From the NCBI GenBank assembly GCA_028874985.1, contig JAPPGI010000135.1, positions 1 to 47,908 on the forward strand: DNA of 47,908 bases. Reading direction: 5' to 3'. Under the pieces are notes generated by a model. That model was not told where the DNA came from. It worked only from the letters and a program-made list of their open reading frames with translations, and ran no database searches. Shown here piece after piece: positions 9,251-10,585 of this stretch (position 1 is its first letter; every line of letters begins with the position of its first letter). This stretch comes from Gemmatimonadota bacterium (GTDB taxonomy: Bacteria > Gemmatimonadota > Gemmatimonadetes > Longimicrobiales > Gaopeijiaceae). The translations under genes were made by a program, and so were the position numbers.

Positions 9251-9715
9251 CTACCCCCCGGTCACGTCCGCCGACCAGGTCACCTCGACCGCCCCCTCGA
9301 GACTGCGTGCCGTCGGACACTTCGCCACATGGGTGGACAGCGCCCGGTCGACCTTGTCGCGCGGGGCGCCTTCGGGGAGCCGGATCGTGTAGTGGGCGTG
9401 AATCTTCGTGAGCACCACAACCCGGTCCACGACTTCGTTCGTCCCCTCCGCCTCCACGCTGATCGCGTCGTTCGCCATCGGGATCCCGCGCACCTCCAGT
9501 GCGCCGTTGAGGGTCCCGAGCAGTCAGCCGGCGGCCGCCGCGACCAGGTAGTCGACGGGGAGCGGCCGGTCGGGTTCCGCGTCGAGACGGAAATGGGACT
9601 TGATGGGACCGTGGACGCCGAAGTCGATCTCGGTGCCGTCCTCCAGGGTGGCGCGGCGGTGGATGCCGTCGACCTTGGCGACGCTGGCGCGGGCGGTGTA
9701 GAAGGGTTGGCTCAT
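9251..9715 (-). CDS. OsmC-family protein with in-frame UGA at the catalytic Cys (putative selenoprotein)
   Basis: OsmC/Ohr-family proteins reduce peroxides with two cysteines. The frame from ATG 9715 reads MSQPFYTARASVAKVDGIHR, DFGVHGPIKSHFRLDAEPDR and PVDYLVAAAAG, then TGA (9526-9524, codon 64), then LLGTLNGALEVRGIPMANDA through STHVAKCPTARSLEGAVEVT to TAG at 9251. The TGA falls where family members have the first catalytic Cys (C before L-G-T-L); the second, in KCPTARSL, is Cys133. The frame is unchanged across the TGA, there is no other stop, and both halves keep family sequence. A stem-loop fitting the bacterial SECIS rules follows the TGA. I therefore read it as selenocysteine, 154 residues. 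A plain nonsense mutation remains possible. The frame is also open upstream to 9907, but that part is low-complexity. Confidence 0.75.
9479..9518 (-). promoter_or_regulatory. Candidate bacterial SECIS element
   Basis: Minus-strand RNA just after the UGA folds as follows: a 6-bp perfect upper stem GCGCAC/GTGCGC (9504-9499 with 9493-9488) with the 5-base loop UGGAG; CCC/GGG (9513-9511 with 9487-9485); and CGGGA/UCCCG (9518-9514 with 9483-9479). The apical loop starts 26 bases after the UGA and has G at its second position. This agrees with the published bacterial SECIS consensus of a G in the first two loop bases and a loop 16-37 bases from the UGA. Confidence 0.7.
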
Positions 9716-9913: not shown

Positions 9914-10585
9914 ATGGACCTACGACAGATGTTTATGAGTCGGTGGAAATCCGAAGTACCGGGCCCGCACGAGGCGTTGCCGGGAAGAGGTGAGCCGTTG
10001 CGCGTGCCCGGGCCGCACCATGTCAGCGGGAACCGTATCCGGCCTCCCTTCCCGGAGGGCGTCCAGCGGGCCTACTTCGCCATGGGCTGCTTCTGGGGTG
10101 CGGAGCGCCTGTTCTGGGAGCTTTCCGGCGTGTACTCGACCGCGGTCGGCTACCAGGGCGGCCGGACGCCGAACCCGACCTACCGGGAAGTCTGCACGGG
10201 CCGCACCGGCCACGCCGAGGCCGTCCTGGTCGTCCACGATCCCGACCTGGTGGACTACCGGACGCTGCTGGCCGCCTTCTGGGAGGGGCACGACCCGACC
10301 CAGGGAATGCGGCAGGGTGCCGATGTGGGCACGCAGTACCGGTCCGCCGTCTACACGGTGGGGGACCGGCAACGGCGCCTGGCCGAGGAGTCCCGCGACC
10401 GGTACCAGGCCGAACTCGACGAGGCGGGGTTCGGTGCCATCACCACGGGGATCGCACCCGCGGCCGAGTTCTACTACGCCGAGGAGTACCACCAGCAGTA
10501 CCTGGCCAGGAACCCGGGCGGCTACTGCGGGTTGGGGGGGACGGGCGTGTCCTGCCCGAGCGGCGTCATGCCCGCGACCGACTAG
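9914..10585 (+). CDS. msrA: Peptide methionine sulfoxide reductase MsrA
   Basis: Reduces the S-epimer of methionine sulfoxide in proteins. The 223-residue product has the catalytic [14 protein letters not shown] (Cys59), [52 protein letters not shown] and the C-terminal resolving region [16 protein letters not shown]. It resembles the E. coli MsrA type with an N-terminal extension ([15 protein letters not shown]) rather than the short form. The start is ATG 9914; in-frame ATGs at 9929 and 9935 are equally possible, and none has a clear ribosome site. It diverges from the OsmC-family gene, which supports a shared oxidative-repair role. A palindromic repeat follows right after its stop. Confidence 0.95.

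Follow-up and report, generated by a model that had tools for sequence, protein, structure and literature searches.

A conserved 17-nt hairpin as the probable SECIS element of a predicted OsmC-family selenoprotein in Gemmatimonadota

Introduction

The bacterial SECIS model, as summarized in the legend of Fig. 2 of PMC13188914, from which the rule applied here was taken, comprises a loop of 3-9 nt on a stem of 4-16 bp, a G at the first or second position of the loop, a distance of 16-37 nt from the UGA and a stable structure. OsmC-like selenoproteins were reported in 2005 from the Sargasso Sea (three sequences, PMC1088965) and again in 2008 from the GOS data (five sequences, PMC2398784). In the parts of these two reports that describe them the motif is UxxT, the form still given in reviews.

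The locus described here lies in a window of 47,908 nucleotides, the whole stretch of Gemmatimonadota DNA that was analysed. To the extent that the two reports describe it (PMC1088965, PMC2398784), the published OsmC-like selenoprotein has in common with the predicted product of this locus the OsmC family, Sec and a bacterial SECIS. A literature search by title or abstract start returned no paper on a Sec-containing OsmC protein in Gemmatimonadota.

The gene and its predicted product

The gene and its two presumed redox codons are located as follows.

9251..9715, minus strand: gene of the predicted OsmC-family selenoprotein, 154 codons plus a TAG stop, with UGA as codon 64
9524..9526, minus strand: UGA codon, predicted to be read as selenocysteine (Sec64), at the OsmC/Ohr active-site Cys position
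9317..9319, minus strand: codon of Cys133, the presumed resolving cysteine, invariant column C133

The read-through product matches the Pfam OsmC family (PF02566) with an E-value of 4.7e-15 and 56.3 bits, against a curated cut-off of 27.5, and a match at E 0.001 is found in 53 of 53 aligned members. An OsmC fold is predicted as well by the AlphaFold2 model of the product (pLDDT 96.4), which resembles solved OsmC/Ohr structures and gives its highest Z (15.7, rmsd 1.9, 138 aligned) with the OsmC-family PDB entry 2onf. In the alignment with Thermus OsmC (1ukk), the UGA of the window falls on a Cys, which we take to be the peroxidatic one.

The position of codon 64 is occupied by TGA in all 69 orthologues analysed and by TGC in the Cys homologues. 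The motif around it reads ULLGTL in 49 orthologues, UMLGTL in 19 and ULVGTL in one, hence UxxG in all of them. A second Cys follows the Sec codon by 68-70 residues in 69/69 orthologues and 20/20 sampled paralogues; in the Cys homologues the second Cys comes 65-67 residues on. U64 and C133 are the presumed two redox residues of an OsmC/Ohr protein.

A Cys-type MsrA gene, at 9914..10585 on the plus strand, is divergent from the OsmC gene, and an MsrA homologue is divergent and near the OsmC gene in 21 of 45 loci (L046-L090). The two genes possibly form a shared oxidative-stress neighbourhood.

The hairpin downstream of the UGA

Two RNA features were delimited downstream of the UGA.

9488..9504, minus strand: putative SECIS hairpin, 17 nt, 7-bp stem including a U.G closing pair, loop GGA at 9497..9495
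9478..9519, minus strand: lower stem extension, CCC/GGG and CGGGA/UCCCG, which folds here and is not conserved

The pairs named in the original prediction are all present on the minus strand: the 6-bp stem GCGCAC/GUGCGC with its loop UGGAG, and the CCC/GGG and CGGGA/UCCCG pairs. For the UGA and the 48 nt that follow it, the fold energy is -24.4 kcal/mol (z -3.15), a value reached by 1 of 200 dinucleotide shuffles; the 17-nt hairpin on its own has -9.7 kcal/mol, below the SECIS limit of -7.5. The loop lies 26 nt downstream of the UGA and has a G within its first two bases, and the hairpin codons translate as G-A-L-E-V-R. A SECIS-like element is thus correctly placed within a coding sequence that runs past the UGA, as had been proposed. 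Agreement with the SECIS consensus had also been advanced as support; the loop distance and the G are indeed in place, but such agreement is insufficient as evidence, because, of the 975 TGA triplets on the two strands of the window, 99 pass the same rule, as do, on average, 10.3% of the other codon offsets of the orthologues. With about 10% of random TGA passing, the rule alone is weak, and the significance of the hairpin comes from its conservation.

It is improbable, though not far-fetched, that the lower stem belongs to the functional SECIS, as in the structure originally drawn at 9479-9518. The extension folds in the window sequence and in several same-genus sequences, and it may contribute to efficiency at the genus level. 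Against this, 64.5% of its alignment cells are paired, a proportion that 115 of 500 shuffles equal or exceed, codons 67, 68 and 78 are unconstrained, and no covariation or constraint comparable to that of the upper stem is seen in the lower one. The lower extension, which behaves like ordinary codons, was therefore rejected as part of the element, and what stands of the drawn structure is its upper 17-nt hairpin.

An RNA-model search of the genome itself for further copies scored only this place (76.1 bits; the next hit has 17.5), a search that would miss selenoproteins with a different SECIS. A scan of the window for any other UGA followed by a hairpin in a coding-like frame gave one pass of a loose filter (29684, minus strand), with a poor codon signature.

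Selenocysteine machinery and the reading of the UGA

The genome contains SelA, SelB, SelD and tRNA-Sec. Winged-helix domains 2 and 3 are present in its SelB, and the anticodon of tRNA-Sec, read by eye, is UCA. The SelD gene (L092) is itself UGA-coded, with an in-frame TGA and a rule-conforming hairpin of 7 bp (GGCGCAG/CUGCGCC) whose loop, GUC, lies 33 nt from the UGA. Taking into account that the OsmC loop is GGA, the SelB of this genome would have to accept both loops. Across genomes, SelB scores over its cut-off in 77 of the 82 that carry a UGA-OsmC gene vs 27 of the 66 others (Fisher 1e-12); the five exceptions (G024, G029, G032, G068, G070) are 81-93% complete.

The tRNA-Sec gene (L001, G000 C47:1-91) starts at the first base of its contig, and the same is observed in G002, G003 and G006; G004 and G034 each have two strong tRNA-Sec copies. 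A repeat or an integration site may adjoin selC.

The identity of residue 64 as selenocysteine is deduced from sequence, which leaves a narrow margin for suppression or code reassignment that would put a different residue at the UGA. This is very unlikely: in 30 of the 69 orthologues the gene itself ends in UGA, which is thus not generally reassigned, the site is a Cys in OsmC homologues, and both the presence of the machinery in the genome and the co-occurrence of UGA-OsmC with SelB point to selenocysteine.

Conservation and covariation of the hairpin

A rule-conforming hairpin is found in 69/69 UGA orthologues, 19/20 sampled UGA paralogues and 2/17 Cys homologues, while synonymous shuffles conform in 19.8%, 27.2% and 4.2% of cases, respectively. 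The two Cys homologues have their hairpins at non-homologous places. At the homologous place, all seven pairs are formed in 68/69 orthologues and 18/20 paralogues and in none of the 17 Cys homologues. The distance from UGA to loop is 26 nt in 68/69 orthologues and 25 nt in the remaining one, within the required 16-37 nt, and the geometry is 7 bp with a loop of 3 in 68/69 and 6 bp with a loop of 5 in 1/69; the 6-bp stem with a 5-nt loop occurs in orthologue L132 and paralogue L143. In paralogue L135 (G141), which has GCC/GCC at codons 72/75, the hairpin is absent from its usual place, and a weak hairpin of 4 bp and loop GGA is observed 18 nt from the UGA (L135 311-361, minus strand). The original prediction was to fall if Cys homologues kept the stem equally well; in none of the 17, which are remote controls of 28-35% identity, are there more than two consecutive pairs at this place.

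Constraint on the hairpin is also apparent in its synonymous positions. When the 32 columns in which 80% or more of the residues are identical are ordered by increasing synonymous diversity, codons 71-76 of the hairpin take places 1, 6, 2, 9, 3 and 4 (exact rank-sum p 1.3e-5), and in 20 same-genus orthologues the six codons show no difference, where about 36.5 synonymous ones are expected. The whole 51-nt region folds only slightly more stably than its synonymous shuffles (mean z -0.87 in orthologues, -0.14 in paralogues); with protein and codon usage controlled for, its fold energy is weak evidence, and it was set aside.

Paired changes preserving the stem, which had been named as the support to look for, are found at two stem pairs, each of which changes on both sides. 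In 89 sequences, codons 72/75 read GCA/GTG in 58, GCG/GCG in 22, GTG/GCA in 7, GCG/GTG (a G.U pair) in one and GCC/GCC in one. From these counts it follows that, in codons 72 and 75 alike, the wobble base tracks the second base of the other codon, a tracking which, as read from these sequences, goes beyond what protein function would require. Cells changed on both sides at the two pairs number 36 vs 13.0 +/- 3.4 in shuffled alignments, with 0/500 as high; the orthologues alone give 11 vs 2.2 +/- 1.2, and a control in which the pairing partners were slid gives none. On a quick tree, pair 27-35 undergoes at least 8 changes of state and its two bases 7 and 6, so that the changes are mostly joint, on branches of which few are well supported. 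It is difficult to estimate the number of independent compensations, because well-supported independent contrasts on this tree number only one for pair 27-35 and two for pair 26-36; a tree-based sign test of covariation was abandoned for the same reason.

These data bear directly on the notion that GC-rich codons in a stretch of conserved protein produce the hairpin as a by-product without any function as RNA. Chance agreement with the rule is admittedly frequent, both for random TGA in this GC-rich window (about 10%) and for synonymous shuffles (20-27% in the UGA families), but such a by-product, already contradicted by a covariation that no shuffle equals, accounts neither for wobble bases of codons 72 and 75 that follow their pairing partners, nor for hairpin codons that are the least variable, nor for the absence of the hairpin from Cys homologues, and we consider it extremely unlikely. 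Similarly negligible is the possibility that the UGA at which the standard reading ends is a genuine terminator, an error of sequencing or the mark of a pseudogene, with the downstream part untranslated from this start: TGA is kept at the same codon in every orthologue analysed, differences at codons +16 to +84 of 20 same-genus orthologues are mainly synonymous (420 vs 166 nonsynonymous), and Cys133, past the UGA, is invariant.

Distribution among relatives

Matches to the protein were found in 99 of 148 relatives, 82 of which have at least one match bearing an in-frame TGA. The 70 close matches (at least 52% identity) all carry the TGA. A further 58 TGA matches are more distant (29-45% identity), and the 20 sampled from them form a sister clade (L135-L154) of UGA-coded OsmC paralogues, in which the rule-conforming hairpin occupies the same place with the same spacing in 19 of 20. 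The "two TGA" noted in three paralogues were discounted, the read-throughs consisting of one Sec codon followed by a TGA terminator. Stop-less matches number 22, all at 35% identity or below apart from one 30-residue fragment; among the matches listed for the 148 relatives there is no full-length Cys form above 35% identity, and a plasmid search gave no match for Cys homologues in plasmids. A separate scan of genome contigs yielded 45 loci, nearly all in Gemmatimonadota, Gemmatimonadales or Longimicrobiales MAGs, and a 395-genome sample of the phylum gives the same picture among the rows listed.

Two contigs labelled Deltaproteobacteria (RHO3_bin_65; L060, L061) carry 90% identical copies of the gene and are probably misbinned. 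At G046:C40:39987-40076, a C-terminal OsmC fragment of 30 residues (70% identity) is found some 2.3 kb away from the full gene.

Proposed function and significance

Taken together, these findings make it very nearly certain, as far as sequence can establish it, that the hairpin 9504..9488 serves as the SECIS of an OsmC-family peroxidase with selenocysteine. The sequences themselves show the hairpin, its selection as RNA, translation beyond the UGA and the co-occurrence with SelB, and the OsmC fold is predicted from them. SelB, with GTP and Sec-tRNA(Sec), would bind the hairpin and bring selenocysteine to the UGA, 26 nt before the loop; the ribosome would next melt the hairpin and translate its codons. 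We infer SelB binding and actual Sec insertion, which would yield an enzyme of OsmC fold in which residue 64 is the selenol nucleophile and Cys133 provides the resolving thiol. Such an enzyme would probably reduce organic hydroperoxides.

Every copy examined in this OsmC branch (69 orthologues) appears to carry Sec, and the existing database model misses the branch. In many Gemmatimonadota genomes the gene is likely to have been overlooked or recorded as a truncated one. An evenly balanced proposition is that the Gemmatimonadota lineage, with its two sister subfamilies, is obligately Sec-based, the gene being kept with Sec or lost and never turned to Cys, and that the fixed 17-nt SECIS links the codons, and hence the residues, allowed at positions 72 and 75. 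The locus is a clear example from nature of wobble choice and linked amino-acid changes within a gene that are accounted for by RNA pairing and not by protein function, and its OsmC enzymes may be selenium-dependent as a family.

Comparison with known systems

Relative to the bacterial SECIS model, as far as the legend in PMC13188914 defines it, the loop of the window hairpin fits N1 G[G/U] N N2, with N1.N2 = U.G, and nothing falls outside the model. The E. coli fdhF SECIS, in the features of it given in PMC8659212, is likewise a 17-nt upper hairpin downstream of the UGA and within the coding sequence; it starts 11 nt after the UGA, whereas the window hairpin starts after 19. The window stem is perfect, without the bulged U17 of fdhF, and the loop GGA has no equivalent of U24 (PMC8659212), so that both fdhF-type details, the bulged U of the stem and the GU of the loop, are absent.

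On the protein side, the published motif is UxxT (as stated in the corresponding parts of PMC1088965 and PMC2398784), in contrast to the UxxG of the window subfamily in 69/69 orthologues. The published family was, by the same descriptions, found through pairs of Sec and Cys homologues, whereas the window subfamily has no close Cys form among the matches listed for 148 relatives. The NCBIfam model NF041052 (OsmC_like_Se) matches the same domain weakly, with 30.2 bits vs a cut-off of 95; it exceeds this cut-off in 0/59 relatives, gives 22.5 bits for a distant orthologue and has no match at E 0.001 in three paralogues. The UxxG motif and the scores below the NF041052 cut-off thus point to a new subfamily among the known OsmC-like selenoproteins, served by an ordinary bacterial SECIS.
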